Source: Neonectria sp. B-13 (taxonomy: Eukaryota; Ascomycota; Sordariomycetes; Hypocreales; Nectriaceae). From it: DNA of 64,000 nt. Below are positions 9,200 through 33,470 of the stretch, piece by piece (the first letter of the stretch is position 1; each line of letters starts with the position of its first letter). Position numbers and translations under genes: made by a program. The notes beneath the pieces were generated by a model. It saw nothing but the letters and a program-made list of their open reading frames with translations. It had not been told where the DNA came from and ran no database searches. The stretch covers positions 434,001-498,000 of the forward strand of contig NOKP01000024.1 of assembly GCA_002682825.1 (NCBI GenBank), given 5' to 3'.

Positions 9200-9996
9200 C
9201 TTGTTCCAGTTCAAAAGAGACCTTGGGAATTGTAACGGAGATGGTCTGTATTATGGGTCGGTCGAGTCATGTTTTCGGGAACTGTTGGGGTCAAAGATGG
9301 CTTTAAAGATGCTCTCCTAGTGGGATGAGAAACGTGTGCGCCCCCTATGACCGAAATGTTACCAGAGACAACGAGACCATCAACTCCGCGAACGGGATTA
9401 AACCGGGTTACTCGCCTGGAAATACGATTGCTGATAAGGCGAGTTGGGCGTCCAAACGGATTAGAGCGGATTGTCATACCATCGGACTAGCGTCCGACGA
9501 CTGCACCTATCATCCTTGGTCCATCACAGCCAGGGGCTTATCGGTCGTTATCTCGATCAAGGCATGAATCGGCACCTCCGACGTTGCGGCCAGGATGCTA
9601 GGATGCTATTCTTCATGGCAGTATCTTGCCCGCACTGTCTTGTACGTGTCGTGCCGAAATGGCCAACCATGCTATAGGTGCCCAAGTCGATTGATGAAGC
9701 TATTTCGAATATCTTTGAAGATTGTCTTGGTTTTGCCTTCAAGTCCTTACTGTCTTCATATCGGACTCCAAACGGCCTTCAAGCTAACCGACCATTTACT
9801 ATAACCAGCTCTCCACATTTATAGAAATTTGATCATTGCATACTCGGTACATCAAATAACACTGGCGACGGAAATTGAAACGAATATTGATTAGACTCGA
9901 GGTATATTACACCGCCTGCACGCTTGAGCAATTTTATATGCACATGTCCCACTGATACATTGGGCTTTGGGCGATGGTTCCACAACTTGTCCATTC
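9200..9996. other. promoter of permease and 3' region of aldolase
   Basis: No gene is seen. Holds the regulon palindrome at 9569-9581 and a second, wider palindrome TCGG-N8-CCGA at 9482-9497 (TCGGAC-TAGC-GTCCGA, six perfect base pairs in each arm). Confidence 0.6.
9569..9581. promoter_or_regulatory. regulon palindrome TCGG-CACCT-CCGA
   Basis: About 370 bp upstream of the permease start. The inverted CGG/CCG half sites at fixed spacing are what a dimeric Zn2Cys6 protein recognises. Confidence 0.75.
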
Positions 9997-10925
9997 CTAC
10001 TGCTTAAAATCTCCATGACAGAGGTACTCCTCATACCGATAATGAGGCTGGAACTCAGTGAAGAGCGTCTCCTATGGTTGCCATTAGAGGTGCATCCTTG
10101 GAGAAACTCCCACATAAGAGACGCATGACTTACAGCAGTGCTCGCCATTCGATAGTTGTAGGCGGCTTCTTCGTCGCTCACGGTCACTTTCTCGAGCCCA
10201 GTCCTGTCAGCCATCAGCTGAACTTTGCAACTCCTCTCCATCAAACAGAACAAAAATGCAGCCTCGTCCACTGTCTGTCCCACTGTCAGGAGCCCGTGAT
10301 TCATTAAAATGGCAGCTTTCCCGTCTCCCAGGCTCTCGGCAATCCTGTACCCCTCGGACGCCTCATTCGCGATGCCCCCGTAATTGGTGTAGACTGAGTG
10401 GGCTTTGTAAAAGTAGCACACGTCCTGGTTGATCATCTCTAGTGGCTTCGCGAATGCCGACCAGGCCCGGCCATGGACTGAGTGCGTGTGACAGATGGCG
10501 TGTACATCTCTGCGAGAGCGATGCACCGCGCTGTGGATCTGGAAGCCGGCGGCGTTGATGGAGGCGGCTGTGTTCCCGCCGACGACGTCACCGTCCATGT
10601 CCACGCAGATCATATCGCTAGCCTTCATCATCCCAAAGTGCACTCCCAGGGGATTGATCCAGAAGCGGTGTTCAAACTCTGGATCCCGCACACTGATGTG
10701 CCCTGAAATGCCTTCAGCGTAGCCCTCGCGAGCGAAGACACGAAAGGCACCCGCCATATGCTCTAGTTGCCATTGTCGAGTCTCGGCATATGAGTTAAAC
10801 TTGGGGATACCAGGAAGAGCTTTGCCTCTGTGGGCCATGGCCGCCATGGCATCTACATCATTGGTCTTGGTGGAGGGCTGAAGTGCGGGAGGGGGCACTT
10901 GGTCTGAAGTTGCTGAGGGTGCCAT
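9997..10925 (-). CDS. class II aldolase/adducin-domain protein
   Basis: Predicted zinc-dependent class II aldolase-fold enzyme, 288 residues, two exons (10925-10134 and 10071-9997; the intron has a GTAAGT donor and a CATAG acceptor). The Pfam Aldolase_II core runs from about residue 50 to 250. The metal ligands are visible as CHTHSVHG (H-x-H) and, later, the NHGLL motif. The C-terminal exon (ETLFTEFQPHYRYEEYLCHGDF) matches the usual fungal ending. Bacterial relatives are fuculose- or ribulose-phosphate aldolases, but most fungal members have no known substrate, so retro-aldol cleavage of a pathway intermediate is an inference. It shares a promoter and the site at 11186 with the divergent P450. 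Confidence 0.9.
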
Positions 10926-11185
10926 ATTGGTGGTAGTGTTGAAAGGCTAAGATATAAAGAAACAATGCAAATTGTTGGAGATAGGAGAAAACATCGTCCT
11001 CCATAAACCCTAGATATAAAATCGGAATTATGTATCCAAGCCAGTGTCCTTCTTTCTCAGCCCTTAGTCCCGACGGAGAGCCGACGTGCAGTCCAGCACA
11101 TGCAAAGCAACGACTGTCAGCCTGTAAACGATAGGAAATAATAGAAAACTGTAACGTATGCGGTCATCCTTTCCTCATTCCCGGT

Positions 11186-11198
11186 TCGGACCTCCCGA
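11186..11198. promoter_or_regulatory. regulon palindrome TCGG-ACCTC-CCGA
   Basis: Lies between the divergent aldolase (261 bp away) and P450 (147 bp away) and could serve both. Confidence 0.8.
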
Positions 11199-11344
11199 CG
11201 ACGTTAACCCGAAAACGGTAGACTGCGCACTGATTATGTAATAGTCTTTCCCGTCACCTTTCTGGTACTAAATCAACTGCTCCTCTGCTCAAGCAGCCAG
11301 CAAGAAAGTGCAGCAGTGACACCAAGATTAAGTGATCATCAGCC

Positions 11345-13142
11345 ATGACTACAGGCACTATCCAAAGAGGTGAGCTTCCAAGACTCCCCTAGAGTGATCG
11401 GGACCTAATTGAGAAATTGCAGGCGCCCAGGCCCTGCTGGACAACCTCGTACTGGTGGTGATTGCGGTTATTCCCGCCTATCTCATCTACGGCTTCATCT
11501 ACCTGCCATTCTATGGAACTCCCCTGCGCAAAGTCCCAGGCCCGAAGAGTTTCGCAACGACAAAGTGGCGGCTCGCGCTTGCTGATCACCAGGGAACCAG
11601 GACACGATTGATTCACTCCCTCCACGGGAAGTACGGCACCGCAGTGCGCATCGGCCCGAATGAAGTCTCGTTTTCGTCTCTTTCAGCCTTGAGGTCAATC
11701 TACGGTGCGGGATCTGGTTTCGAGCGGACAGAGTTCTACCGAATGTTCGACGTCTACGGACGCCAGAACCTCTTCACCTTTGCCGGCGCCAAGCACCATG
11801 CGGAGAGGAAGAAGGTGCTCGCCCACGCTTACTCGAAAAGCGTGATACTATCACCGAACGCAATGGCGAAACCCCTGGTGGAGAAGAATGTGAAGAACTA
11901 TCTGGAACTCCTGGAGTGTGAAAAAGAAGTGGCCGAAGAGATATTTCACAGCCTACATTGGTTCAGCCTCGACAGCATCACAGGATTCCTCTACGGCGAC
12001 GAACACGGGGGAACGCAATCGCTTCGAAGGAATCTAGAGGATAGGAGACTCCTAAACGATATTGTTGATCCTAGTCGGAAGAAGCTGAGTTGGTATGCGG
12101 TACATCTGAGAAACTACACCAAGTGGCTCTACACGCGAACCGGAGTGATGGAGAAGATTGTCACTAGGTTGCGATTACTGCCCATGGAGAAACCCGCAGT
12201 TTATACCGGCATCCGAGCCCATGGGCTTAAATCGTGGACGGATTTCGAGACTGCTGTAACCGAAAAGGATCCAGACCAGGACTTGACCATCATGGAGAAG
12301 CTATGGAGACACAGCAAAAGTGGCAAAGGCACTCCCCTCCAGGGCCTCGACATGGCTTCTGAGTTAGCAGACCATCTTCTCGCTGGTATCGACACAACAA
12401 GTGATACCACAATGTTCGCCATATGGGCTCTCTCACGGCCGGAATATCGAAAGTACCAGGAGAATTTGATCAAAGAGGTCGACAGCATTTCCGATACGGA
12501 CTGTAACGAAGATGGCAACCCCACCGTAGAAGCTGCGAGCACACTACCATACCTCGACGCAGTCCTCAAGGAGACTCTTCGGCTCTATGCACCTTTGCCA
12601 GCATCAGAGCCACGATCACTTCCAACTGACACAGAGATTGACGGATATCTGATCCCAGCTGGGACGGTTGTAAGCATGGCGCCATACACCCTTCACCGAA
12701 ACCCGGACGTGTTCCCAGACCCCTTGAGGTTCAACCCAGAGCGGTGGCTTGGCCAATGTGGCGATCTTGCAGAGATGAAGAAGTGGTTCTGGGCATTTTC
12801 AAGTGGAGGCCGCATGTGCATCGGTGTGCAGTAAGTTCGCTCGAATTTGTTAGTGTTTGATGATGCGTGGTGAACTAATAGTGGCTTCCCAGTCTTGCCA
12901 TGGCGGAGATGACAACACTGCTTGCTTCCATCTATAGGAAGTACACAACCAATGGGCAAAAGCGACAACAAGGAATGAGTCCGGGAATTACAAGTCGCTT
13001 TGAGGTTTTCTACGATGAGACATTTCAAACATTCGAGGTAAGCAACCGGATGTCTGCAAACCCTGTACAGATCAGTATGGCTAAATCCCTTTGGGCATAG
13101 GAACATCGATGTTGGATTAACTTCGAGAAACGCGAAAACTGA
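11345..13142 (+). CDS. cytochrome P450 monooxygenase
   Basis: Microsomal P450 of 539 residues in four exons: 11345-11369, 11423-12830, 12893-13037, 13101-13142. The tiny first exon supplies the start and leads into an N-terminal anchor (LVLVVIAVIPAYLIYGF) and a proline-rich hinge, RKVPGPKSF. The I-helix AGIDTTSDT, K-helix KETLR (ExxR), PERW and the haem loop FSSGGRMCIG are all intact, and the cysteine ligand is present. The sequence resembles the large fungal group that includes pisatin demethylase and benzoate-hydroxylase-like enzymes, which act on aromatic or hydrophobic small molecules; the substrate cannot be read. The last exon (EHRCWINFEKREN) restores a typical P450 C-terminus. Convergent with the MFS transporter. 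Confidence 0.92.
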
Positions 13143-13507
13143 ATCCAATCACCTCAGACAGCTTAACGATCAAAAGGGTTGGTTGATGGAGATCAGTGTG
13201 GGGGTTAGTAAACTATCTGTTAGGCAGAGCAGTCATTTCCCAAGTCGTTTACTGTCATTACTATCATGCGCCTCTGTGACTAAAATACAATGCCACATTG
13301 CAGAGTCAGAACTAGTCGATTTTGGCGATACTGATATCAAAATGCCAAATACAAAGATGCAGGTTTCATTAGAAGCGAGTTTAGCTTATGTAGAACATTA
13401 TCTGAAAAGTGTGCTATGCCATCTGTTGAATCCTTGCTAAGAATGCTAACTCGCTGCGAATGGGGGACTTTGAGGAGCCATGGTTGGTCTAGATCGCCAT
13501 GTTCATG
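13143..13507. other. convergent intergenic spacer
   Basis: 3' regions of the P450 and the transporter. No coding or regulatory signal recognised. Confidence 0.5.
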
Positions 13508-15210
13508 TTAAGCTTGCGCTTTGGCATCCTTTGAAACTTCAGCAGCTGGAGTCACAGCCTCAGTCACTTCTTGACCACTAAAGCTGTTGTTGAGTTCCGC
13601 TTCTGAGATGGGCTTGCCTCCATCATAGGCATCAATAATATCGACAAGCTCATCACACGGAACACCGTTGAAACGCTGGTCAATCTGTTCCAGGGTGAGG
13701 CCGCTCGTTTCCATATACGTGAAGAATATAACAATGGCGACAAAAACGTTCCAACAAACACCCACGATGTAGAATCTTAGTTGTCAGTGTTTGTGCATCA
13801 AGTAGCCGCAGAGGAGGGTTGCTTACCGCCATCCGATTCCTTCTAGACCAAGCGGAATGACGTATTGATTGAAAAAGCCCGCCGTGGAAGTTATCATGCT
13901 GTATATACTGTTGTAAAACTCGCGCATTAGTCAAATATGCAACAGAGGAAGCGATAAGTTAACGTACCCCATGCCCTTTGCGCGAATGGTAAAGTTCAGA
14001 ACCTCGGCGCAGTACGAGAAAGACAACGGAGTCCAGGTGGATGAGTATCCGATCTGGAAAAGGAAGACCATGGCAATTATTCCGTTCCGCCCGAGCACAT
14101 TGCCAGTTTGATCCGCTGTGAGGCCTGCCATTGTCGCGAGAACAGCGGCACAGAATGCGGTTCCACAGACCAACATGCGGATTCGGCCGACTTTGTCGAT
14201 AACGCAGATTCCAACAAGTGCAGCGGCGAAGGCGACACAGTTTTGGCTAACATTGATGGCAAACTGCTCCTTCTCGGAAGTGATGCCGGCCAGGTCCAGG
14301 ACGCTGCTGAGATAGAAGGTAATAATACTCGAGCCTACAGTCTGCTCGAAGATACCAAGGGTGATGAGAATGTAGGCCCGGTAGAGGTTCGACTTGACAG
14401 AGACAAAGGCTTTCCACCAGGCTCTGTACGAGTCAAATCCGTTCGCCTGCTCAAAAGCAATCGTTTCTCGGATCTCCCTGAACTCGGTAACGACCAGCGG
14501 ATCTGTCTCGTCTCCGTTACCATGAAAACGGGCAAGGACCTGGAGTCCTTCTCTTTCCTGGCCGCGGGATATCAACCATCGTGGCGATTCGGGAATGAAC
14601 GGCAGGGAAGTAATGCATAGCAGAGCAGGGGCGGCCATGCAGACGCAAATAAGACGCCAAGCCCAGTCTCCAGAAAGGCTTCGTGCACCGTAACCGATGG
14701 CCGAGGATATAATGGCACCAAGAAGCCAACATGCCCAGTATAGGCCGGCGACGAAGCCGCGGCGTGAAGGCGGCGCTAGCTCCACGAGATAGGTTGGTAC
14801 AGCAGCAATGTCCACTGACTTGGCGAAGCCGACGAGAATCCGAGCAACAAAGAGTTGTGCTCTAGACGTTGCAGTCGAATGCAGGATGCAAGATACGAGC
14901 ACGATGCATGAGGACACGAGGATTCCTTTCTTCCGGCCCAATTTGTCGACGATGGCACCGGCAAACAAGCCGGCGACAATTCCGCCAAGGTTTTGCGCAG
15001 CCGTCAAAAGGCCCTTGAGGTTTGTATCTATTCCGAACTGGGTCTGAAAGGAGGTCTGCGGGCAACGTTCAGCAATTGTTTCGTTTATGAGAAGAGTGGA
15101 CAAACCAAGATGTTGAGAGAGGACATCATGCTCGCGTCGTAGCCAACGGTCGCGCAGTTCAGTGCTGCCACGAGGCAGATGAGCAACATGGATTTATCAA
15201 GGCCAAACAT
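13508..15210 (-). CDS. MFS sugar-type transporter
   Basis: Major facilitator of the hexose/lactose-permease type, 513 residues, four exons: 15210-15106, 15055-13968, 13907-13827, 13775-13508. Sugar-porter marks are seen in order: GYDASMM in the first helix, DKLGRKKG in loop 2-3, PESPRWL before the central loop, IDKVGR in loop 8-9, and a cytoplasmic tail of about 65 residues after METSG. The start at 15210 gives a short N-terminus. The frame is open further upstream with a plausible sequence (KPDFANRTG), so a 5' exon could exist. Members of this family carry sugars, quinate and other acids, so the cargo is open. It is divergent from the DUF1479 gene and shares that promoter. Confidence 0.9.
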
Positions 15211-15580
15211 GACGCCGGTTCTGTTTGCGAAATCTGGTTTGGATCGGTGCAACAAGCGACAAGGAATCTTGTGCTTCAATGAGAAAATCCCCACGTTAGC
15301 TGGTCATCAGTGGGCTGTCGGCGGATAATGCAAAAGCAATTCTACCGACGTCGTCCGGAATAGCATATCTATATATCGCCATTGCTACATGAGGGGGTGC
15401 CACAACATAACAAAGATAGTCGTAGGGATGAAACGGTACCAGGGTCTGAACCTAGTCCCTAGATGGCATGAAGCGATATGGAGGAAAACGCTCTGATATG
15501 GTTATCCATACGGTTAAACTGTAGATAAGGCTAATGCAATGCATATACGGATAGTCTTTGGCAGATCGGCCTAGATAGAC

Positions 15581-15595
15581 TCGGACAGACTCCGA
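15581..15595. promoter_or_regulatory. variant palindrome TCGG-N7-CCGA
   Basis: Same half sites as the regulon motif but with a 7-nt spacer, 29 bp from the imperfect N5 site in the same divergent promoter. Possibly a weak or second-factor site. Confidence 0.35.
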
Positions 15596-15623
15596 CACCT
15601 ACCCTGCGGTATCCACTCATTCG

Positions 15624-15636
15624 TCGGACCGTCCGC
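15624..15636. promoter_or_regulatory. regulon palindrome, one mismatch (TCGG-ACCGT-CCGC)
   Basis: Keeps the core CGG-N5-CCG; only the last base differs. It lies between the MFS transporter (414 bp) and the DUF1479 gene (163 bp), exactly where the pattern predicts a site. Confidence 0.65.
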
Positions 15637-15798: not shown

Positions 15799-17167
15799 AT
15801 GCCGGGGAAGCTGCTCAGTTGGCCAGCCTGGCAAGAGTTTGAGAGTCCCCCCAAGGATGTCTCCCAGGACACATTCATATTCTCCTCCAAGGCTAAAACG
15901 GAGGTTATTGCTCAGTATGGCGAAGAAGCACTCCGCAAAAGCTGGCTCAAGGTCTGCAAAGATCTCGAGGCTGTCACTGAGAGGCTGAGCACGCTTGGTA
16001 GTGGCGCAGTTCCCGTTCTGGACATGGAGGAGTTTCGTGATAGCGGCCTTTCAGATGCACGACGATCAGAGCTAAAATCTAGTGGCTGTTGCGTCATCCG
16101 CGGTGTCATCGGAGGTGCGGAGGCGACTTCACTGTTCCAGAATCTCAAGGACTTCGTGGCCGAAAACAAGGACAGCATCAATGGTTGGCCGGTAGAGACT
16201 CCTTCAATGCTCAGATTATACAACTCCCCAACCCAGATCGCCGTCAGGACACACCCTAACCAGATACTGTTACAAAGAACTCTGAACTCCCTCTTCCACG
16301 ATGAGTCAGAGGAAACAAACTCAGATCCACTCAGCTATACAGACGCAGCGCGGATTCGCCCTCCCAAACAAGCCTTCTTGGGTCTCGGGCCACACATTGA
16401 CGCCGGCAGTCTGTGCCGTTGGGCAGATCCGCAATACCGCAAGGTGTATGACAGCATCTTTTCCGGTAACCCAGAACTTCATGACGCGTACGATCTCAAC
16501 GTCCGCAAAGACGCCGATCAGTTTCTGTTCGAGGCAAACGCGCACTCCATCGTCTTCCGCGCCTTTCAGGGTTGGACGGCATTGACACCAGCTTCGGCAT
16601 CCTGTGGCACGCTGATGCTATATCCCGAGGTCTCGACAGCCATTGCCTATGTGCTCTTGAGGCCCTTCTTCGCTCCACCAGTAAACCGGGAGGATGTCAT
16701 GGACGCTGGCAAGTGGACCTTTGATCCTGATTCTAGCTGGTTCCCCGGCACAATCAAGGAGCAAAGCCAGAGACTAAGTCCAAGTTCCCATCCACATCTT
16801 CGCTTGCAAGATTGTTTGGTGCATATTCCCCCGATGAACCCGGGTGATACAGTCTGGTGGCATACGGATGTGGGTGTTGATTTACGCTACCTGACTACCG
16901 TTTGAAGCTGACAGTATATAGATGTGCCACGCTGTTGATCCCGAGCATCTTGGTGGGCAAGATGCCAGCGTAGTCTATGTGGCTGCATGCCCAACTACGC
17001 CCCGCAACAAGGCGTATATCAAACAACAGCTGAGGGCAGCTCTGAATGGGCAAGGTCCTCCGGATTGCCCCAATGTTACAGTGGATGAGTCTAAGTTTAA
17101 AGGATACAAAGGGTTCTCTGATGTGTCAGAAGAAGGGAAGGCCGTCTTGGGATTCCCGCTTCTCTAA
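15799..17167 (+). CDS. DUF1479 family, Fe(II)/2-oxoglutarate dioxygenase-like protein
   Basis: Protein of 438 residues in two exons (15799-16869 and 16922-17167; a 52-nt intron whose splice gives WWHTD-MCHAV). It matches the DUF1479 (YbiU-type) family along its whole length. Candidate iron ligands of the double-stranded beta-helix are seen: GPHIDAGSLCRW (H-x-D) in the middle and the late WWHTDMCHAV histidine. The N-terminal part (CCVIRGVIGG) matches the strand that opens the jelly roll. By analogy it would oxidise a small molecule with O2 and 2-oxoglutarate, but no fungal member known to me has a proven substrate. The family is common in fungal catabolic clusters. Confidence 0.9.
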
Positions 17168-17692
17168 ACAATGAATGACCGGCGGGAGGGAACAGGTTTT
17201 CTACATGGATAGGGACCAGATTAGGAGTAAAAAGCAACATCCATCTCAGTTTCCCTGGTACCTGAAGATAGTCTCACCACCATGATACCTAGTTTCTCCA
17301 TCAATGTCAGAATAGGGTGTCATAGAGCCCATTGTAATATAGTAGTACACTTATTCAGGCTCAAATGAGATGACGGCACCGCCCACAATACGTGTGCCAG
17401 CACAGGGACGCAATGTGAAATAACTATAGCACAAAAGGATGAAGTTTACTAATTTCGGACAAGTCATCTTGAAGAATGAATGCTGAATCGACAGATTGGA
17501 CTTCGCTCTAGATCTTAAACCCACGTGCACATGATTGTAGCTATCCGTATCTACGTATGTGTGTGTGTGCGTGCAATTCCAGCATTCCTCTGCGAAGCCC
17601 AATTTCTTTATTTCACCTCTATTGATAAAACAGAACAAATGCATCACCTTGGTTTCACCACTTCCCAAGTGTTGTAAATCTAATTTCTATTT
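17168..17692. other. convergent intergenic spacer
   Basis: 3' regions of the DUF1479 gene and the SDR. Contains a short GT-rich run near 17560. No gene seen. Confidence 0.5.
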
Positions 17693-18627
17693 CTATATCG
17701 TATAGCCAGCGTCGACAATAACGTTGACTCCGGTCATGCTCTTAGACCTTGCCAGACCTAAAACCTGCTCCGCGACATCCTAAGAGCCCACGTAATTAGT
17801 ACACGGGACAATATCATCAAATCATTCACACGATGAGAACGTGCAATCATACCTCAATCTCAACAAATCTTTTCAGCTTGGTTCCTTGTCGGTGGGATTC
17901 CTTCTGCTCCTCAGAAAAGCGTGTTGCCCACTCCTGATTGCGAGTCAGCTTTTCCCCCCAGAATTCTCTTGAAAGAGATAGTGCCTTACCGTTTGAAGTA
18001 GGCCCGGTGAAACACTATTCACTCGAATCTTGGGTGCTACCATGGATGCTAGACCCTTGACCATGTGGATTTGGGCGGCCTTTGTAGCGGAGTAAGCCTG
18101 TGGCCAAGTCAACAACTGTGTTTCAATCAATACTTGGTGTTAAGAAATACCAAAGAGCTGCCCATGCCCCTCACACCAGCAATCGACGATGTCGTTATAA
18201 AGGCTCCTTCAGCTTGCTCCAGGTACTCTCTCGCGGCGCGAAGGAGCCAGAGGTGGGACTTGACGTTGATGGTGAAGGATCGATCCCAGTCCTCTTCAAA
18301 ACAATTATCGTCGATGGATGTAGTATCCCGGAATCTTGTCCAACCGCCGTTTGAGAAGATAACGTCGATGCGTCCCATGGACTCATATGTTTCCTGTACG
18401 AGACGGTCGACATCAACCAACGAGGCTAGATCAGCCTGGATTGCGACATAATCGGCCGACTTTTCGGGGTTCGCCCCGCGCAGTTCGGCGAGCAGGCTCG
18501 CTGCGCGGTCAGCGTTCGCATTGTAATTAACGACGACGCGAAACCCATGGCGCGCAAAGAGTCGGGCAACAGCAGCGCCCAAACCTGCTGTTCCGGCAGT
18601 GACGAGAATGACAGGGGTTGATGACAT
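17693..18627 (-). CDS. short-chain dehydrogenase/reductase (SDR 1)
   Basis: Classical SDR of 250 residues in four exons: 18627-18151, 18097-17990, 17933-17853, 17779-17693; all junctions are in phase 0. The cofactor loop is VTAGTAGLGAAV, a variant of TGxxxGxG. The active site is complete, with ITTSSIAG (Ser) and YSATKAA (Tyr-x-x-x-Lys). The usual NAG motif reads NGG (VIFSNGGW), a mild deviation. The C-terminus GVNVIVDAGYT is typical of family members that oxidise or reduce secondary alcohols. It is divergent from the CYP504-like P450 and shares the site at 18844, so both are probably co-induced. Substrate unknown. Confidence 0.9.
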
Positions 18628-18843: not shown

Positions 18844-18856
18844 TCGGACGGTCCGA
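18844..18856. promoter_or_regulatory. regulon palindrome TCGG-ACGGT-CCGA
   Basis: Extended perfect palindrome CGGAC-G-GTCCG in the shared promoter of SDR 1 (217 bp) and the CYP504-like P450 (197 bp). A further TCGGAC half site precedes it at 18834. Confidence 0.8.
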
Positions 18857-19052: not shown

Positions 19053-20824
19053 ATGGCGATTAAATACGACGAAATCTTTCCCCTTCCACCCCTGGCCCAG
19101 CTCCAGGACCTTGGTAGGCTGGTCCCTGTAGCCATAGCCGTCTTGGTTGTGTTCGTGTCCTACGTCATACACGCCGTGAGTAACTGGGATGCCCATATTC
19201 ATGGGACAGCGGACTAGACTAACACACCACCTGCAGGTTGCTTTCAAGACAGATATTCCTCATATTAAAGGAATGCCAGAAATCCCCGGTGCATTGCCTG
19301 TTTTTGGTCACCTCCTCCAGCTAGGTGAGGACCACGCCAGCGTCTGCGAGAAATGGTGGCGACAATATGGCCAGTCCGTTTTCCAGATCAAGCTGGGAAA
19401 CACGCGAGCCGTCGTTGTCAACTCGTTTGATGATTGCAAGAAAATGCTTCTTGGCAACCAGAATGCAGTCATCGACCGCCCGACGCTCTACACCTTCCAC
19501 GGCGTCATTAGCAGCACTCAAGGCTTCACAATTGGCTCATCTCCTTGGGACGAGTCTTGCAAAAAGAAGCGAAAAGCCGCTGGTACAGCGCTGAGCAGGC
19601 CTGCGCTGAGAAACTACTATCCCATGTTCGACCTGGAGAGTTATTGCATCGTCCGAGATCTTCACAAGGACAGCCGCAATGGCGAGATTGAGGTCAACGT
19701 GCGCCCGTACATCCAGCGATTTGCCCTCAACACTACCCTGACACTCTGTTACGGAATCCGGATGGACGAGGTTTACGATGAGTTGTTGCGCGAAATCCTC
19801 CACGTTGGCTCAGCCATCTCGCTCTTGCGCAGCGCATCTGAGAACCTCCAGGATTATGTCCCGCTTCTACGATACTTGCCCAACAACGAGAAGAACAGGC
19901 GTTCCAAGGAGCTGCGTGACCGACGCGACGCGTACCTCAACGAGCTTTTGGACACTGTGCGAGGCATGATCAAGCGGGGGACCGACAAGCCTTGCATTTC
20001 AGCAGCCATTCTCAAGGATGCGGAAACGAAGCTCACGGGCGTCGAGGTCTCTTCCATCTGTCTATCCTTGGTTTCCGGCGGCTTCGAGACGATCCCCGGC
20101 ACTTTGACGTCTGCCATTGGGTCTTTGTCTACTAAGGAAGGCCAGATCTGGCAGGATCGCGCATATGAGGACATCAAGCGGCATTACCCCAATGTTCAGG
20201 ACGCCTGGACTAGCTGTTCCGTAGAGGAGAAGGTCCCCTACGTCAACGCAATCATCATGGAGGCGGGACGCTACTACACTGTCAGCTCTATGAGTCTCCC
20301 TCGAAAGACGGTGACGGAAGTCAACTGGAACGGCGCCATCATTCCGCCCAAGACGATGATTCTGATCAACGCACAAGCAGGCAACCACGGTAAGTTCACC
20401 TTGTACGGATCTCGGCGGTTGCGCGGAGTGAAGCTAACAATTAGTAGACATCGACCACTTCGGCAGCGATGCTGATAAGTTCGACCCGGAGAGATGGCTC
20501 AAGACACTCGACCCTCCCACTGAGGCCGTGTCTTCTGGTTTGCCGCATCTTAGCTTTGGCACTGGGTCTCGTGCATGTTCGGGTCAATTCATCGCCTCTC
20601 GACTTCTGTACGCCGCTCTTATTCGCATTTTGACCTCGTACAAGATCGTCGCAAGTGAAACTGAGCCGCCAAATACCGATTACGTCGAGTACAACCAGAT
20701 CAAGACGGCCTTGGTGGCCATTCCAAGGGACTTCAAGGTCAAGCTCATCCCAAGGGACTCCGCCGTCACTAGCGAATGCATGAGCGCTGCTGAGGAGCGT
20801 ACCAAGGACCATTACAAGGAATAA
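19053..20824 (+). CDS. cytochrome P450, CYP504 (phenylacetate hydroxylase)-like
   Basis: P450 of 550 residues in three exons: 19053-19175, 19237-20389, 20448-20824. An N-terminal anchor (VPVAIAVLVVFVSYVIHA) is followed by MPEIPGALPVFGHL and CEKWWRQYG. The I-helix has GGFETIPGT instead of the usual AGxDTT, the K-helix motif is EAGR, and the haem loop is FGTGSRACSG with the cysteine intact. These features point to CYP504, whose known Aspergillus members (phacA, phacB) hydroxylate phenylacetate and hydroxyphenylacetate on the ring. I assign the family with fair confidence from recall of its motifs. An aromatic-acid substrate in this cluster is inference. Confidence 0.88.
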
Positions 20825-21077: not shown

Positions 21078-21090
21078 TCGGCTCCTCCGA
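21078..21090. promoter_or_regulatory. regulon palindrome TCGG-CTCCT-CCGA
   Basis: 109 bp upstream of the SDR 2 start codon. Confidence 0.8.
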
Positions 21091-21198: not shown

Positions 21199-22329
21199 AT
21201 GCCTTCCACGCTTGATATTACTCGGCTCTTTAGCGTACGCGGCTATGTAGCAGCTGTCACAGGAGGTTGCAGCGGCTTGGGCTTCATGATTTGCAAGGTA
21301 ATTGGTTATCTCTTCCTCCAAAGTATGCCCAAGTCAAATGTTGACAGGCTTCATGACAGGGTCTAGTGGCAAATGGCGCCAGAGTATACCTGATCTCCTT
21401 GCCGCACGAGCCCATCAGTGAAAGAGTCGACGAGCTGAACGAGCTGGGAAAAGCACAGGGTGGCAGTGCAATCGGGTATGTTCATCGGCCAGCTTGATGG
21501 ATGTCCATATACTAAGACTCTCAGTGTACCTTGCGATGTCTCTTCGAAAGACGCCATTGCTGAACTGGCTGCATACATCGGCCAACGAGAGAAGCATCTC
21601 GATATCCTGGTCTCGAATGCTGGTATACGACGTGATCCACCAGAGAGCTGTGATGTGCTCACGGCCCCTCTTCTAGAGCTGCAGTCGTCCATGTGGTCAT
21701 CGCGCCATTCGGACTGGGCGGACACGTTCTGCGTCAACACAACAGCCCATTATTTCTTGTCTGTTGCTCTGCTCCCCCTATTATCTGCAGCTTCAGAGCT
21801 CGACCTTGGAAATGGCCGGCAAGGTCGAGAAGAAGGCCGTGGAGTCGTTATCATCACCAGTTCCTGTGCAAGCATGCACAATGTTACCAATGTCGACTTG
21901 ACCAGCTATGCTTCAAGCAAGGCGGCAACGGATCATTTGGTTCGACTGCTGGCAGCAAAGTTTGGTCGATTCTACGTCCGAGTAACAGGAATTAATCCCG
22001 GGTGTGAGTGACGGCCGTTCGCCGCAACGATGTACAATGCTGATGACGTACAGTTGTGCCGAGCAAGATGAACCCTGTTGGCGAAGCTGGAAACATGTTC
22101 AGTTCCCTCTTCGATCAGGTTCCGGCCAAAAGACCAGCAAATGAAGAAGATATTGCGAGCGCAATACTTTATCTGTCCAGTCGAGCCGGGGTATAGCGCC
22201 CATTTACTCTCCAGTCCTCTGGGTCTTGTCTATCTACAGTCTACTAATATTTCTTTACAGGCATACGTGGATGGAATCTCGCTGTGCATTGACGGCGGGC
22301 GGATATTGGTGGCTAATGGACAACAGTGA
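21199..22329 (+). CDS. short-chain dehydrogenase/reductase (SDR 2)
   Basis: SDR of 299 residues in five exons: 21199-21297, 21360-21475, 21525-22003, 22054-22190, 22261-22329. The cofactor loop TGGCSGLG, the structural NAG (LVSNAGIR), the catalytic serine strand IITSSCAS and YASSK (Tyr-x-x-x-Lys) are all present, as is the terminal DGISLCIDGG. Overall it resembles gluconate-5-dehydrogenase/2-deoxy-D-gluconate-dehydrogenase-like fungal SDRs. It carries a longer insert around residues 140-170 (LDLGNGRQGREEGRG). It shows no close similarity to SDR 1 beyond the fold, so the two likely act at different steps. Same strand as the flanking P450 and amidase, each with its own regulon site. Confidence 0.88.
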
Positions 22330-22724: not shown

Positions 22725-22737
22725 TCGGCGCGTCCGA
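22725..22737. promoter_or_regulatory. regulon palindrome TCGG-CGCGT-CCGA
   Basis: 121 bp upstream of the amidase start. Arms extend to TGTCGG / CCGACA. Confidence 0.8.
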
Positions 22738-22857: not shown

Positions 22858-24663
22858 ATGTCAATTGTATCCTTGTCGACTGACTTCCCGTAAGTATCTG
22901 TCGAGATGATCATTGGCACCCCAGCTGATGAATATTCTAGGTCTAGCACGGATGTCAATGACTTGCGACGATTGGCTAACCAAATCGGGTTCGACGTCGA
23001 CAACGCCCAGGATGCAGACGACTATCTTTTGCTCTTGAGGTCTTTGGAGTCGGTCATGCAGTTCATCAAAGACGGTCCAGACTATGTACCCGCATCCCTC
23101 AAGCCGTATCCCGTGGCCGAGGCTCGCACGTATTGGAAACCAAGCCCAGCAGATAATCCACTTAATGCCTGGAGCCATCGATGCAATCTTCAGTCTAACA
23201 CCTGTACCAGCGACTTGCTCAATGGGAGAACGATTGTCATTAAAGACAACATATCCGTCGGTGGACTGCCGACGACGCTGGGCACATTTCCGCAGATGCT
23301 ATCCCAAACCGGAACTTTCCCTGTCTCACCAATCGATGCTACTGTCGTGTCTCGGATATTGGCTGCTGGCGCCATAATCAAGGGCTCATCCACCTGTGAG
23401 AGTTTCTGTGCATCCCCTTTATCCTTCACTTCAGCAATCGGCCCAGTCCACAATCCCTTGCTACATGGGTACACGTCCGGCGGAAGTAGCAGTGGCTCTT
23501 GTGCACTTGTCGCTGCAGGCGTGTTGCCTCCGGAGCTTCGCAATTCCCTGGGTGAGACATCACAACTAGCCATTGGGAGCGACCAGGCTGGATCGGTCCG
23601 CATTCCGGCTTGCTACAATGGCATCTATGGCCTCAAGCCCACCTTTGGTCTGGTACCCTACACCGGGGCAGCGTCTATGGCTCCTATGATTGACCACTTG
23701 GGACCCATCGCATCAACACTTGAAGACATTGCGGCCTTGTTGAAGGTTATGGCTGGATACGACGGCCTAGACTCTCGAATGACACCCGAATCACCACTAC
23801 TCAACCAGGTAGAGGATTATCCGCAAATATTGGCAGATTTTCGAAAACAATTCTCTACGAAAGATCAGTCGAGCCAACGTCTGAGAGTTGGTCTCTTAAA
23901 GGAATCCTTTTCCGTTGCTGGTATCTCTCCAGAGGTTAGGGAAATGGTCCATCAGTCTGCAACATCCTTCTTCGAATCCGCTGGAGCCGAGGTTGTCCAA
24001 GTCTCCGTACCCATGCACCTCGATGGCCCTTCAATCTGGACTGCGTCAACAAGGCCATCCATGTCTGAATGGCTGTGTCAAGGAAAGACTTCAGGATATC
24101 TCTCGTACCTGGCCCCTCACATCCAACCGACATGGCCTCCAACACAGGAGACTTACGAGTTGTTGAAATCCAGCAACCCTGCAGTTGTCAACATAATTCT
24201 CAGCGAGAAATTTGCGAGTGAGAAGTTTGGGCCGGCAGTCGAGGCAAAGGCACATCGGAAAGTCTTCGAACTAAGAGCCGCATATGACAACGCCCTCGAG
24301 GCTGTTGACGTGCTGATTACACCATGTGCGCCATCCATTGCAATGCCGCATCCCAAGTCAAATGATGAGCGAGGAAACAAATACACGTTGCTAGAGAGGC
24401 TTGGCGTCGCCGTCGGCTTGACCAACAATACCTGTCCGTTCAATATCACGGGTCATCCAGCCATGAGTGTCCCTTGCGGACACCTACCAGTTCCCAACCA
24501 TGAGGGGGTAAAGCTACCTGTAGGCATGCAGGTAGTCGGGAAACGTTGGGACGACTCGTCTGTGATATTGGCGGCGGCGCTATTCGAGGAAGGAAGACGG
24601 CTTGTAAGAAAGGATAGTCTTGGCAATACGGAAAAGGATACGACATGGAACACGGTGCTTTAG
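22858..24663 (+). CDS. amidase (amidase-signature family)
   Basis: Amidase-signature hydrolase of 584 residues. A 32-nt first exon (22858-22889) joins 22941-24663 in phase (TDFP-SSTDV). The Ser-cisSer-Lys triad is visible: Lys at about residue 112 in IVIKDNI, the cis-Ser in SGGSSSGS around 190-197, and the nucleophile Ser around 229 in GSDQAGSVRIPA. Family members release ammonia or an amine from carboxylic amides. It is longer than the usual 450-550 residues because of an N-terminal segment of about 100 residues. As the only obvious C-N hydrolase of the block, it is the best candidate for the entry step on an amide substrate (inference). Confidence 0.93.
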
Positions 24664-24789
24664 TTACCATAAAGAAAAGAATGGCCCTCTTAGCTTAACT
24701 ATATTTCCTCCACATAATCAGGATTCATGTCTCTTCTACCCTTATGGCTTCAAGGCCTTGGTACTAAGTGGAATAACATTTAAGATAAG

Positions 24790-25809
24790 TTATTCTTTTA
24801 CGTTTTCCAAGAATTGGGCGATTTCCTGGTTCATCCAATCTACATCCTTCTTACTAACCCCAGAGCCGGCCAAATGACCCCAGACGGAGGGGATGACTTT
24901 CAAAATCGCATCCTTGATCCCTTCGGATTCTCTCTTGCTAGCCCTCCAACTAAAGTACTGATCTGTTTGGCAGGGCATCAACAAAACGCGAGCCTGGATC
25001 TGGGACAGTGATTCCTCCAAAGAGCTGCTCACAGAAGAGCTGCATGCCACTATGTCTCCCCTTTGCCACATTCGTAGCATTGCGAGCAGGTCATCAGGGG
25101 CCCAACCGTTGTACTTCGTGCCAGTTGTATCTTGGTCCCATTCCCGCAGAGTCTCATAACCCAATTCTTTGTATAGCTCATTGTCGAACCACTCGGTACT
25201 GGTCAACCAAGCAGAGTAAGCCTTCCCAAAGGCTCTCAGGCCGCGCGGAGAGTTTTGACTGGCGAGGCGACGAACCTCGTCGGCATAATCGATGGAGTTC
25301 TCGAGGGCAGCGCTGGGACCTTCTAAAAATTGATAGTTGTGTTGACTTGTTCGAGCCGAGGAGCAAACAATGATGGCGAGTCGCGCGAAACCCGGATGCA
25401 TCGCCATCCAATGATATGCGCACTGTCCGCCCATTGAGAAGCCGACCAGGACATCAATGCCTTCGAGGCCCAGATGTTGAGTGAGAAGCTGATGCTGAGC
25501 ATGGACGCAGTCTTGATAGTCAACCGACTTTGGGAAAGTCGGGGTGTTTGAAGGACTCGACGACTCCCCATTTCCGAAAAGAGCGATTACAATGATTCTG
25601 TAATTGCGAAGCGCCCCATCACCGTAATTCAACGTGGTAAGAAGCCTACCCCGGAAGCATGTAAACACCACAGCTACTTTCGTAGCGTCTGGGTTTAGGT
25701 CAAGGTAGGCTAGCCGAGCTTGTGGGAGAGTCGTTCCATCCAGGAACTTGAAGTCGGACAGAAAGAAATACTTTGTTTGGGGATTTGTTGAAGGTAATAT
25801 TCCAGTCAT
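24790..25809 (-). CDS. alpha/beta hydrolase, homoserine O-acetyltransferase-like
   Basis: Single-exon protein of 339 residues. The nucleophile elbow GFSMGG (Ser at about 125), the acid in PCQTDQYF and the histidine in WGHLAGSG make a full catalytic triad. The start (KFLDGTTLPQARLAYLDLN) and overall order match the MetX/homoserine acetyltransferase-like branch of alpha/beta hydrolases. Many fungal members of this branch are not methionine enzymes but esterases or acyltransferases of accessory pathways, so I do not call it MET2. Convergent with the amidase. Its promoter holds the site at 26110. Confidence 0.9.
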   Translation of the reverse strand: MTGILPSTNPQTKYFFLSDFKFLDGTTLPQARLAYLDLNPDATKVAVVFTCFRGRLLTTLNYGDGALRNYRIIVIALFGNGESSSPSNTPTFPKSVDYQDCVHAQHQLLTQHLGLEGIDVLVGFSMGGQCAYHWMAMHPGFARLAIIVCSSARTSQHNYQFLEGPSAALENSIDYADEVRRLASQNSPRGLRAFGKAYSAWLTSTEWFDNELYKELGYETLREWDQDTTGTKYNGWAPDDLLAMLRMWQRGDIVACSSSVSSSLEESLSQIQARVLLMPCQTDQYFSWRASKRESEGIKDAILKVIPSVWGHLAGSGVSKKDVDWMNQEIAQFLENVKE

Positions 25810-26109: not shown

Positions 26110-26122
26110 TCGGCTGTTCCGA
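26110..26122. promoter_or_regulatory. regulon palindrome TCGG-CTGTT-CCGA
   Basis: 301 bp upstream of the alpha/beta hydrolase start. Confidence 0.75.
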
Positions 26123-28629: not shown

Positions 28630-28885
28630 GAGAAATACAATGCAAAAGCAATGACCTACGTCGGCGAGCTTGACAGTGCGTCCGGGGCCGGTTCCGTCGG
28701 CAAACGGGAGCGGCGTGTTCCATCGAATAGAGAGCTCTTCATGAACATATACGTAGTCATCCAGGCCGTCGCCGTCCAAGCTAGATAGCAAGCTCTGTCA
28801 GCGGAGTCATATGCTGTTGGGGTGGGGTCGACATACTCAGCAAACCGAACATTCTGTCCCTTGAATTTCCATCCGAACATGTTTT
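28630..28885 (-). pseudogene. detached FG-GAP repeat exon
   Basis: After the stop at 28886 the same strand still encodes NVRFAE, then, across a GTATGT...CTAG intron, DLDGDGLDDYVYVHEE, one more FG-GAP/VCBS repeat with the same exon structure as those upstream. Either the gene model continues through an intron I cannot define or the 3' end is broken. Confidence 0.5.
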
Positions 28886-31177
28886 TCAGTTCTTCACTAT
28901 GTGCTTTGGGCCCTTTGCAGCAACGCCGCGGTAGGCCCAGTTATAATTGTAGGATGAGCCTAGGTTCTGCCACCACTTGGCTGAGCCGTCTTCGTCGTCA
29001 ACAACAACATAATCCACTGTATAGCAATTCAGCTCACTCGCCTTCCAATCAAATAGACAGGTGAAGGAAATGACAGATGTGGACTTACGACCGCATAGGA
29101 AGACGCCTTCTCCCGGCTGGTATTGCCCTCCGGAGCCCTTGTTCAGCCAAACCGTAATTGCAACATTACCATTAACAGCAACGAAATCAACCTTACCGTC
29201 GCCATCCATATCAACCATTCGCACTGCATCTTGATCGACATCGTTCGGGCCGTCAGCGACAGTAACAGGGACGGTATTTGCTTGTAAGCGGATGATAAAT
29301 CCAGTCACCTTGGCGTTCTTGCCGACAAGCATGTAGTCGGCTCTGCCCTCACCGGTGAAGTCGCCCATGATCACTTTGCCGTTTTCTATCTTTGAAGCTC
29401 CGGTCGCGATGATACCGAGTTTGTGGTAGTCAGGGAACTTGCTCACGCCGGTGTTGAGCCAACCAGTGGTCTCGCCGGTCGCATGGTCGACATAAAGGAA
29501 ATCAGCTCTGCCATCGCCTATAGCCAAAGGAAGCGTCAGTGAGCGAGTATCCATTTCGGGAGCCATGAATCTCTGACCATCAAGATCTATCATCTGAAGA
29601 TTGGGCCAGTCCTTTGCTTCGAGGATGTCCGAGATCACACCTAGGCCCTCCCAGACATATATGCCATCCTGCTTGCCATGGGTTGATCCACGCATAGACT
29701 GACCCATTTAGTCGGCTGATATAAATATAGTCATCTCGGCCATCACCGTTCAAGCTACAAGGCGGTCAGTAAAGGAGATGGAGAAGACGAAGAGTGATAT
29801 GTACTCGACAAAAAAGACATTGTCGCCGAACCGATACTCTGCACCGATGGCAACTTCGACTTCATCTTTCCACTCATCGCTAAGTACGCCGTCGATGCCT
29901 TTGTTCCTCCAGACTCTTGTTCCTCCGGTATCCGGGTCAACACAGGCGTAGTCCTTCAGGCCGTTACGGTCTAGATCCATAAGGCGAACATGATCGCGTA
30001 GACAGTGGCCGTCTGAAACTAAGGTCTCCTCACCCCATTTCTGGACAAGGTCTCCGTCTGAGTATGCCCTAAGCGAGAATAAGCGGGTGTCAGTATGATC
30101 CTCGGTATCAGGATAGGATATAGGATGGGAGCATACACTTTGGCGCCGTCAGCGATTTGCCCAACCTTGTACCATGATGGCGTTGCACTACTATGAGCAG
30201 CGTTGGGGTCAGTTGATGTAGGCGGGTCGCTTCCTTTCCCCGGTTTGGAGATGCTGTACGTCGATGTCTCGAGCGCATCGATCCATGCGGCAGCCATCTT
30301 CTCATATCCCGCGGTCTTGGGGTGGAGGCCATCGCTCAAGTCTGAAACGCTGACCTTGGAGTTCATGTCAACTAGATTGATCTTCTTGAACCTGGACTTG
30401 AAATGGTCCACAATATCAGAGATTCCACCGTTGAAGTCCGGGATTCGGCCCGCTGTGCCAGGGTATCTTCTTCCATCAGCTGGGATAATGGTGCACAAGA
30501 AGACGACAGCATCGGGGCTTTGCTCGTATATCAACGAGATGAGTCCCTGGAGTTGCACATGGGCTTGGGGGTAGTCGGCCAGGTTGTCCTTGACGTCGTT
30601 CGTTCCAGCATGAAGAAGGACAACGTTCGGGGCAGCATAGATGCCTGTGAGACTATGCGCCTGGATGCCATCAATCCTCTCTCCCCTATGCCCCTCGCAT
30701 AGGGGTTGAGGGAAGTCTCCAGCGTTTAGACTTCCGACAAACTCGACTTTGTTACCCCGTCCAGTCAGGCTCTCATAGAGAGGCTTGCGATAGCCGTTAC
30801 ATCCTGCGCTTGGAGCACCCACCTGACAGAATGGACTCCCCGCGCCATAGGTAATTGAACTAATGCGCTGTCAGTCTAGCTCCGCAGGCGGGATAAGCAA
30901 TCCGTTGCTGGTCATATGAGGCCGCAAGTGGAATGCCCAAGAGACGGGAGGACTGCTTAACCGCATAGGGGAATGGAAAGCTCATGACTTACTCTCCGAT
31001 AGCAAGGATCTTCAAGTCCACTCCATCAGCAATGGGCTCAAGTTGCCGTTCCACTGCAGCGGCGGTTGAAAATGGAATCCAGAAGCTGAACGCCGCAAGT
31101 GCGACGGTCACTGGGAATACCCAGGAATAATGTCCTGGACCAACAGTATAACGCGGACCATATTTTTCTGGTGCCAT
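28886..31177 (-). CDS. secreted SGNH/GDSL hydrolase with C-terminal FG-GAP (VCBS) repeats, apparently frameshifted
   Basis: Exons 31177-30993, 30859-30137, 30068-29805, 29754-29089 and 29016-28886. The N-terminus carries a hydrophobic segment (FPVTVALAAFSFWIPFSTAAA) that fits a signal peptide. The SGNH blocks follow: GDSITYG (joined across the first intron), GTNDV and DGLHP. After a Ser/Pro-rich linker come repeats of the type DLDxNGLKDY, DLNGDGRDDY and DMDGDGKVDF, calcium-binding blades of a beta-propeller. In exon 4 the frame must shift by one base at the GGG run 29680-29682 to pass from the repeat VYAWIN to DGIYVWEGLGVISD. It is probably an extracellular esterase; function may be lost. There is no regulon site in its promoter. 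Confidence 0.7.
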
Positions 31178-32575
31178 AGCTGATTTATGTGCCCCACGGT
31201 AGATAATGGCCTTCTTCTGTCCCTCTATACACGCCACGATGCAAGGGCTAACGGCTCAACTTTATGATAGACACCGGACTGGATCTTGTGAATTGGAATC
31301 ATGTATTGACCAAGATAGTTGCTTCAATGGGGGCCGTTTGCAAGCTGTTTCTCGAGGTGAGGGACCCGCCATGGCTCATCCTGGATGTCGGTGTGCAAGG
31401 CCACGGGGCGGGCTGTTGGCTGCAAGCGTATGAAGAGGGGCTTGTAGTCTGAGCCACTCCGAGCCGAATGTAACCGGTCTGTCCAGGGACCATCCTAACT
31501 GGCAATTGCCCTGTTCTAGGCCCTATACTTTGGGCTGCAAGATCCACACTAACCATAGAAACAAGCATGCGGAGTACACGTGGTGAGAAGTCATTTCGCT
31601 TGCCAAGGATTTTTGGTCGCATCAACCGGATGTTCGGCAACGATCATATCTCACACAGGCCTAGCCTCAACCTCTTGTCTCAAGTTTCATCTATTATTAG
31701 CCTCGGAGTGTAAGGCGTTGGTTAAGTCCTTTAGTCCGAGGATCGACGGCGGGAATAAACGGCGGAGACACACAATGGCAGGGAATACCTTGGCTTTTAC
31801 AAGCACCACATGCGCCATGTCTTACTCTCCACCGCATCGCCATCTGCGAGGGGATATCACGAAGGTTCCTGTCTGAAAAGCAGAGCAGGCAAGGCAATGA
31901 TGTTTCTGGTCTCCCGCCACCTTCTCGGCCCCCTCTGCTGTCTCCATAGTAATAGCCGTCAACTACAATAGCGAGACTGGCTAGTAATTTGGAGAGCAGA
32001 TACTACAACATTGGCTATTTCAGGTGCAGCCAATTGGTTATTTTAATGAGTTAAAGGGCATTCTTGCAGAAACCTGAGCTTGTTCCCCCTTCTCTGAATC
32101 TGACCGCCACATATCGCGAAGATAGTGGCCGAGTCATAGAGGGGGAAAGAGCATGTTTTCTACCTAATTGAACGTCCAAATAGCCTGCTTTTGTAATATT
32201 GGTCTTATTAAACAGACCATATCCAATTCCTTGTATCGGAGTCGTTGAGAGCCTGAAGTCCGTGTCATCGAGGATCTTTTGTTGACCAACAGCGCCGATC
32301 GTCAGAAGTCAAGGTCAGAATTTGGATTAAATCAATGTCAAGAATTGATCGTCATCTTCATAATGAGGTCTGCCTTAGGGTTCAAGGGTTAGGTATATTT
32401 TTCTATCTAAGCCGGTATGCTCCAAGGCTTCTATCTTGGCTTATTCTAAGCTTAAAAAGAGAAAATAAGAAAAAAATATAAAAAGGAATGCCACGAGTTA
32501 AACCCGACTTCAAGTCACGGCTTTGCCTATGACCTACCCTGTGGCGTTGATATATCAGCTTCAACTTCATTTCCC
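31178..32575. other. long intergenic region, partly AT-rich
   Basis: No supported gene. About 31960-32480 is AT-rich with a purine run near 32455-32485. It looks like decayed DNA, but I recognise no element. Confidence 0.4.
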
Positions 32576-33140
32576 TTAACTAGGAGCTCCCTCTCTGGGA
32601 GCTTCTTTCTCTCTTCTCTTTAGTAGCGCTAATAGTTCTATAGTCAGCAGGTACAGGATCAGGAAACTGTCGGGGGACAAAAGGCTGTGGTGAAGGTAGT
32701 AAAGCCGCAGGAGCGTTTCAAAGCGAATGGTTGCGTTCGATATCCATTGATCTCGTTCTTCGTCACCGGCGGGTATGTCCGCTATCATCTGCCAAAGAGT
32801 CCAGATAGTTCTATGGTACTCCATACTAAGAAATTACGTTGGTAAGCAGCTGTGTCACAAGTCGGCTCTTTTGGCTGACTCTAAAACTGGCATGGGAACT
32901 TACTGAATCTTGAGTTGCGTTGGCATGACAATATTCGCAGACAATAGAGCATCTGGCAGTCCGCCATACCATGACTCCAACTTTGACTGGCATTCCAGGA
33001 CATCCTTAACCGATAGTATGGTGGTAGAGCTGGAGTTACCGAAAGCCCGCGACGCAATATCGTACACCACGGCATGCAATTCGACTTGGGCCTTGAAGCT
33101 ACAGCCGAAGCCTGTCACGACTGTGTTCCCGTCCGCCGGG
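32576..33140 (-). pseudogene. truncated fungal-specific transcription factor (C-terminal remnant)
   Basis: Two exons still splice in phase: about 33140-32913 (TGFGCSFKAQVELHAVVYDIASR and so on, through MPTQLKI) and the segment from about 32827 down to the stop at 32576 (MEYHRTIWTLWQ). The donor is GTAAGT and the acceptor TTCTTAG. The sequence matches the last quarter of the Fungal_trans regulatory domain, where a substrate-sensing helix is followed by a YHxxI/LxLxxP-type helix. Upstream of about 33140 the frame is closed by a stop and no zinc cluster is found, so the gene has lost its DNA-binding half. It sits just upstream, on the opposite strand, of the RidA gene promoter, and may be a displaced former regulator. 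Confidence 0.65.
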
Positions 33141-33396
33141 TACCTGACCCGTATCTAGCCGTACCAAATGGGAATCTGAGCCGGATCTAGCAGTGAGATT
33201 GCCGGTGGTTCTGGTAGGATTAGCTATAGGGAGATCCCCATACGATACGACACATCCTTATCTAAATCTCAAAATATGGAGAAGAGCTGACAAATGCGAC
33301 CAAGGAGTTGATTGATTCGCCGTTTGTTCGTAATCGCACCTCGGCTTACTGTCTGTCTGTCTGTCCGCCAATTAGACTAGATGCCCCAGAGTATTG

Positions 33397-33409
33397 TCGG
33401 TGGCTCCGA
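33397..33409. promoter_or_regulatory. regulon palindrome TCGG-TGGCT-CCGA
   Basis: 337 bp upstream of the RidA-like gene; arms extend to TGTCGG / CCGACA. Confidence 0.8.
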
Positions 33410-33457
33410 CAACCAAGCATCGACACTTTTAAGTGGAGGTATCTTAGTGCTTGGGTG

Positions 33458-33470
33458 TCGGACGGCCCGA
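33458..33470. promoter_or_regulatory. regulon palindrome TCGG-ACGGC-CCGA
   Basis: 276 bp upstream of the RidA-like gene and 61 bp from the previous site, the only promoter with two perfect copies. Confidence 0.8.

Follow-up and report, generated by a model that had tools for sequence, protein, structure and literature searches.

Introduction

Several fungal regulators act through operators that consist of two inverted TCGG half-sites and differ in the length of the spacer between them. The site of Ppr1 and UaY is TCGG-N6-CCGA. That of GliZ is TCGGN3CCGA (PMC7022936), and that of PDR-1/RhaR, a Gal4-type zinc-cluster regulator of pectin and rhamnose genes, is TCGG-X11-CCGA (PMC5469009). Here, we describe a palindrome with the same half-sites and a spacer of five nucleotides, TCGG-N5-CCGA, which recurs in the promoters of a putative catabolic gene cluster of the ascomycete Neonectria sp. 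B-13. The cluster lies in a stretch of 64,000 nucleotides (contig NOKP01000024.1, positions 434,001 to 498,000), referred to in the following as the window, and positions are those of the window unless a contig is named. An earlier note on this DNA, made without database searches, had drawn attention to the palindrome and had interpreted it as the mark of an eleven-gene regulon.

The locus resembles each of the described systems in part. Ppr1 offers the closest solved DNA-binding domain to that of the zinc-cluster protein encoded at 34481 in the cluster, with the same YV..LE pattern where the coiled coil begins and likewise a short inverted spacing, but its spacer is 6 rather than 5, and its linker, counted by hand over the aligned region, has 14 residues versus 15 in the 34481 protein. 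The likeness to GliZ is that the promoters of a single cluster contain inverted TCGG half-sites and that this cluster itself carries the gene for a zinc-cluster regulator; the GliZ cluster, however, is biosynthetic and its spacer is 3, whereas the cluster in the window appears to be catabolic. PDR-1/RhaR shares the inverted half-sites, the Gal4-type zinc cluster and a catabolic regulon, but differs in its spacer of 11 and in the pectin and rhamnose genes it serves.

Full-text string searches for N5 forms yielded no TCGG-N5-CCGA, but bracketed strings escape such searches and the subscription literature is sparsely covered, so that the novelty of the spacing is not proven thereby. Work on AtrR notes a CGG-N5-CCG string in the cdr1B promoter (PMC5215518), and the part examined of a table of fungal regulators contains a direct CGG-X5-CGG site and no inverted N5 site (PMC12941744). 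The N5 spacing of an inverted TCGG operator is apparently new. A search of the literature by titles and the beginnings of abstracts found no description of this catabolic cluster.

Enrichment and spacing of the palindrome

The window holds nine perfect matches to TCGG-N5-CCGA, at 0.95 expected from dinucleotide shuffles, of which none in 100 reached nine and the richest contained four. All nine are those listed in the earlier note, which had also put the chance expectation at about one, and all are confined to 8.5–33.5 kb. TCGG repeats in inverted, everted and direct arrangement were surveyed for all spacers k of 0–30, the window being split at 8501–33600. Inside this interval, inverted TCGG-Nk-CCGA pairs occur nine times at k=5 and at most twice at every other k; outside it, the survey found no inverted pair at k=5, in agreement with the confinement claimed previously. 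The spacings of UaY/Ppr1 (N6), GliZ (N3) and PDR-1/RhaR (X11) are each represented by zero matches in 8501–33600; the earlier note had already set N5 apart from the first two of these spacings.

The same motif emerges from an unseeded scan of the window for all 4-Nk-4 dyads with k of 0–20, which encountered 568,046 dyads and ranked TCGG-N5-CCGA first among the palindromic ones and third overall (9 versus 1.07 expected, p ~2e-6). The two dyads ranked above it are non-palindromic pieces of the same motif, and their p-values are inflated because a near-palindromic site contributes a count from each strand; we therefore rely on the palindromic dyad. A window-wide refined weight matrix drifted, scoring weak matches (27161, 49212) like true sites, and was dropped.

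In the host assembly of 60.93 Mb, TCGG-N5-CCGA occurs 1012 times, that is, once per 60 kb or 1.06 times per 64 kb. From this rate, 0.40 sites are expected in the interval 9569–33470 (23.9 kb), where the site density is about 20 times that of the genome; in a homogeneous Poisson model, the probability of eight or more sites is 1.1e-8, or ~3e-5 once multiplied by the number of such windows in the genome. A genome-wide density similar to that of the locus, which the earlier note had named as grounds for refutation, is thus not observed. Mirror-image pairs of matches were seen within contigs such as C55, C20, C36, C38, C45, C57, C69, C72, C105, C27 and C54, and in C55 and C72 several such pairs add up to an equal coordinate sum. 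Contigs of this sort look like duplicates folded back on themselves. Motif counts over the genome therefore include repeats and are inflated, as may be the assembly size.

Sites in the cluster promoters

Eight of the nine perfect sites are intergenic, at an intergenic share of the stretch of 36% (p = 0.0017, with hand-made gene models). From left to right, TCGGCACCTCCGA (9569–9581) lies in the promoter of an amino acid permease gene (minus strand, start ~9199) and TCGGACCTCCCGA (11186–11198) between the genes of an aldolase (minus strand, start 10925) and of the cytochrome P450 P450a (plus strand, start 11345). Site TCGGACGGTCCGA (18844–18856), which together with its flanks forms the exact palindrome GTCGGACGGTCCGAC, is found between the genes of short-chain dehydrogenase 1 (SDR1; minus strand, start 18627) and of a CYP504E-like P450 (plus strand, start 19053). 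It is followed by TCGGCTCCTCCGA (21078–21090) in the promoter of a second short-chain dehydrogenase gene (SDR2, start 21200), TCGGCGCGTCCGA (22725–22737) in that of an amidase gene (start 22906), TCGGCTGTTCCGA (26110–26122) in that of a MetX-like alpha/beta hydrolase gene (minus strand, start 25809), and a pair of sites, TCGGTGGCTCCGA (33397–33409) and TCGGACGGCCCGA (33458–33470), upstream of a RidA gene. The one-mismatch copy reported at 15624 is present as well (TCGGACCGTCCGC, 15624–15636), between the genes of an MFS transporter (minus strand, start ~15210, by eye) and of a DUF1479 protein (plus strand, start 15799). At up to one mismatch, however, the window contains 36 matches versus 23.0 expected, so that a single such copy is of little weight alone. 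With start codons placed by eye, the distances from site to start agree with the 109–414 bp given previously (110 for SDR2, 414 for MFS), and three sites, 11186, 15624 and 18844, serve divergent pairs as described.

The ninth perfect match (8533–8545) lies within the permease coding region, lacks the GTCGG/CCGAC flanks and is probably a chance occurrence; a one-mismatch site at 33788, in the RidA coding sequence, was likewise judged to be chance. The earlier claim that every promoter of the regulon is marked holds for the enzymes and transporters of the cluster, but not for the promoter of the regulator gene nor for the genes between 26123 and 33396, where there is no perfect site and one single-mismatch match (27780). 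Similarly, nine of the eleven proposed member genes stand by the position of perfect sites (those of the permease, aldolase, P450a, SDR1, CYP504E-like P450, SDR2, amidase, MetX-like hydrolase and RidA), while the case for the remaining two, MFS and DUF1479, rests on the copy with one mismatch.

At the eight promoter sites, the right end reads Y-CCGAC in every case, and TCGG is preceded by G or T in seven. Their common orientation (YCCGAC on the plus strand, 8/8) was considered and is not significant, the exact GTCGGA half being distributed 5:1 by hand count, while both halves are exact at one site and neither is at another. The 20-bp flanks differ between sites, which therefore did not arise by copying of a single repeat. 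That the motif is a mere accident of composition, or copied promoter DNA with no regulatory meaning, is very improbable: about one chance match per window is to be expected, and the match at 8533 is probably this one, but the local and genome-wide probabilities given above, the dissimilar flanks, the specificity for one spacing and the footprint in a second locus, described below, all speak against it.

In the eight promoter stretches, delimited by hand around the sites and totaling 3,852 bp, GTCGGA half-sites occur 13 times, as compared with 15 in the rest of the window (rate ratio 13.5). Nine of the 13 are part of N5 sites, that at 15624 included, and four lie outside. Inverted TCGGA...TCCGAC pairs were also seen near N5 sites in two cluster promoters, at 15581–15595 (N7) and 9482–9497 (N8). 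It is conceivable, if unlikely, that the true element is the GTCGGA half-site with a flexible spacing, of which N5 is merely the commonest and the N7 and N8 pairs are further instances. The four half-sites outside N5 sites, two of them within these pairs, would fit this explanation, but the nine pairs at spacing 5 versus at most two at any other spacing argue for a fixed N5 arrangement. Inverted CGG triplets at a fixed spacing thus recur across the cluster promoters, as in the inverted-repeat operators of Zn2Cys6 proteins.

The genome was also searched with longer patterns. For KTCGGNNNNYCCGAC, which was derived from the promoter sites, 65 matches were found on the forward and 56 on the reverse strand (113 and 105 for the reversed control), and at least seven places in the window and at least three close together on contig C39 are among the matches listed. 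GTCGGNNNNTCCGAC has 37 matches at 34 places (31 and 24 for the reversed control), five of the places being in the window and two on C39. Three of its matches are exact GTCGGA-N3-TCCGAC palindromes, in the SDR1/CYP504E promoter, in an MFS–DUF1479 promoter on C39 and at C2:427700; the last lies inside long open frames and was judged to be chance.

A second locus on contig C39

The sites on C39 (5680729, 5680973 and 5684752) are located upstream of a P450 gene and in the region between the divergent genes of a DUF1479/MFS pair. The C39 pieces that match the window are 39 and 63% identical for DUF1479, 29 and 31% for MFS and 26 and 43% for P450a. When the MFS–DUF1479 intergenic regions of the window and C39 (600 and 540 bp) are compared, the strongest match consists of 14 identical bp, CGTCGGACCGTCCG, with an E-value of 0.001, which are the core of site 15624; two others have an E-value of 0.95, one of them being the same motif on the opposite strand. 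The motif core is thus the only significant DNA that the two promoters share. In this paralogous comparison within one genome, the site is thus present in the corresponding divergent promoter of the P450/DUF1479/MFS group on C39. This unlinked group is probably under the same control as the cluster in the window.

A search of the genome for DUF1479 gave 14 matches, which we read as seven distinct genes. Two have a site, a perfect one in the case of the C39:5683 gene and the one-mismatch copy in that of the window gene. A third divergent MFS/DUF1479 pair (35 and 58% identity, respectively) is found on contig C46, and its promoter (G000:C46:418269-419300) contains a tandem run of CTCGCCCGAG units as well as two CTCGGGCGAG copies elsewhere; these elements are possibly a different operator.

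The proposed regulator

The proposed binder of the site is a Zn2Cys6 regulator of 662 residues encoded on the plus strand at 34481–36771 (exons 34481–34647, 34736–35618, 35670–35730, 35782–35920, 35970–36030 and 36094–36771), which is 94% identical to a protein of Neonectria ditissima. Its zinc cluster has the Zn2Cys6 spacing CX2CX6CX6CX2CX6C from C14 to C41, and it contains a fungal-specific transcription factor domain (PF04082, 2.1e-16). The six cysteines, R20-K21-K22 and D25-R26 are invariant in 15 aligned sequences. For this alignment and for the searches for homologs and paralogs, the query was a model with two retained short introns and the loss of some residues; the structural comparison used the first 91 residues, which this model leaves untouched. 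Here, the closest solved structure of the DNA-binding domain is that of Ppr1 (1pyi, E 4.6e-7), and Hap1 was also matched in the PDB. We surveyed the linker in 121 sequences (the window protein and the 120 best of 218 homologs), 76 of which have a recognizable zinc cluster: from the last cysteine to YV..LE, it measures 15 residues in 62 of the 76 and 16 in six, and the pattern was not found in eight. The host genome search found no close paralog, the best match elsewhere scoring 66 bits, and a scan of viral contigs found no relatives.

A second zinc-cluster-like open reading frame, at 4382–5512 on the minus strand, was noticed by eye just past the left end of the cluster; it matched no Pfam family. 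This frame, or an unlinked gene, might encode the zinc-cluster protein that binds the functional site, with the 34481 protein acting elsewhere or as a partner, which we regard as fairly unlikely. Such an arrangement would be in keeping with the absence of a site from the promoter of the 34481 gene, and the C39 stretch has regulator-like frames of its own, for instance at ~5.690 Mb (by eye). Against it stand the DNA-binding domain of the 34481 protein, which is Ppr1-like and thus of a type that suits inverted sites with short spacers, and the fact that the 34481 gene is the one that accompanies the CYP504E-like P450 and RidA genes in other fungi.

Conserved linkage in other fungi

For the regulator, the P450 and RidA, we considered the best 120 of 218, of 1004 and of 303 relatives, respectively, and took contigs of identical size across these best-120 lists as a proxy for co-location, which is weak by itself for chromosome-sized contigs. 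On this basis, the regulator shares a contig with the P450 in at least 29 cases, with agreeing organism names in 29 of 29, and with RidA in at least 22, of which three are nameless on both sides and one (6588 bases) is named on one side only. The P450 and RidA share a contig in at least 22 cases, and all three genes do so in at least 11. Locus tags point the same way, with N7503_011762 (P450), 011764 (RidA) and 011765 (regulator) in Penicillium pulvis and the neighboring tags QQZ08_007992 and 007996 in Neonectria magnoliae. In addition, the regulator appears in mis-fused gene models, fused to the CYP504E-like P450 in Aspergillus terreus and Scytalidium, to SDR1 in Penicillium concentricum and to RidA in Purpureocillium. 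The regulator, the CYP504E-like P450 and RidA thus keep company in many fungi, as members of a conserved cluster. The three tags in P. pulvis lie within four of each other, whereas other genes intervene in the window.

Genes of the cluster

At the left of the cluster, the amino acid permease gene (7301–9199, minus strand, approximate model) is followed by that of the class II aldolase/adducin family protein (9891–10925, minus strand), whose closest solved structure is TqaM (266 bits), and by P450a (11345–12960, plus strand, end approximate). The next divergent pair encodes a sugar-porter type MFS transporter (13508–15210, minus strand, several exons, approximate model) and a DUF1479/Gig2-like protein (15799–17168, plus strand), the closest structures to which are bacterial DUF1479 proteins and GIG2. 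SDR1 (17700–18627, minus strand, 3' end approximate) is 64% identical to the dehydrogenase part of the mis-fused P. concentricum model. Opposite to it, the CYP504E-like P450 of 550 residues (19053–20824, plus strand; exons 19053–19175, 19237–20389 and 20448–20824) shares 82% identity with its A. terreus counterpart and 97% with an N. ditissima protein. With the 94% identity of the regulator, the latter value places the host in Neonectria or in its immediate vicinity. CYP504E1 is the name of a Beauveria relative, and most named relatives are labeled phenylacetate 2-hydroxylase; a literature search for CYP504E names found no paper. Further right lie SDR2 (21200–22011, plus strand, approximate), the amidase (22906–24663, plus strand; closest solved structure 3a1k, 248 bits), the MetX-like alpha/beta hydrolase (24790–25809, minus strand), assigned from family and structure matches, and RidA (33746–34201, plus strand), whose closest solved structure is a 2-aminomuconate deaminase (57 bits). 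GDSL-lipase and FG-GAP frames on the minus strand at 28886–30870 have no perfect site and, with others, part the RidA and regulator genes from the remaining cluster. Judged by its enzymes, the cluster may serve to take up and degrade an aromatic compound that contains nitrogen, a substrate guessed from the enzyme families.

Discussion

The site is very probably real and functional, and of a well-understood kind. We consider it quite likely that the palindrome serves as operator for a pathway-specific Zn2Cys6 (Gal4-type) factor, most likely the protein encoded at 34481–36771, which would co-activate the cluster. In a homodimer of this protein, each of the two inverted GTCGG(A) half-sites would be contacted by one zinc cluster, with the CGG triplets 5 bp apart, and a Ppr1-type linker and coiled coil would hold the two zinc clusters at the N5 spacing. 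In the presence of an inducer, the genes of the permease, MFS transporter, aldolase, two P450s, two short-chain dehydrogenases, amidase, hydrolase, DUF1479 protein and RidA would then be switched on together; they resemble the genes of a single pathway for the breakdown of a compound that contains nitrogen and is probably aromatic. The reading of the locus as a regulon in the earlier note is supported, the regulon itself being a prediction from sequence.

Several observations weigh against this interpretation. The promoter of the regulator gene has no site even when one mismatch is allowed, and the only copy between MFS and DUF1479, that at 15624, has a mismatch. The palindrome is not enriched genome-wide (1012 matches versus 1316 for the reversed-pattern control), and for the two longer patterns, too, the reversed controls are the more frequent. 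The dyad p-value of 2e-6 withstands a correction for the ~5,400 palindromic dyads (~0.01) and fails one for all dyads. Three sites within 4 kb are expected about twice per genome by chance (estimated by hand from the genome-wide density), so that the C39 locus is persuasive only through its genes and its footprint. Finally, five of the seven DUF1479 genes have no site in flanks of ~1.5 kb (20 kb for that on C46), and the divergent pair on C46 accordingly has none within 20 kb.

A more far-reaching reading, which we put forward tentatively and hold to be slightly less than an even prospect, is that GTCGGA-N3-TCCGAC represents an undescribed class of operator, whose Ppr1-like regulator has a linker longer by one residue. 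It would drive a catabolic pathway conserved in Pezizomycotina, comprising the CYP504E-like P450, the 2-aminomuconate-deaminase-like RidA, the amidase, the aldolase and the short-chain dehydrogenases, and would have captured the unlinked paralogous P450/DUF1479/MFS group.

The locus offers a testable regulator–operator pair in a catabolic cluster that is widely conserved among fungi. Its motif tells by sequence which of the neighboring genes belong to the cluster and which do not, and it draws attention to a second, probably co-regulated locus. With knowledge of the inducer, the pair would also become a candidate for an inducible promoter system. More generally, the N5 arrangement would extend the spacing code by which zinc-cluster proteins distinguish inverted TCGG sites.

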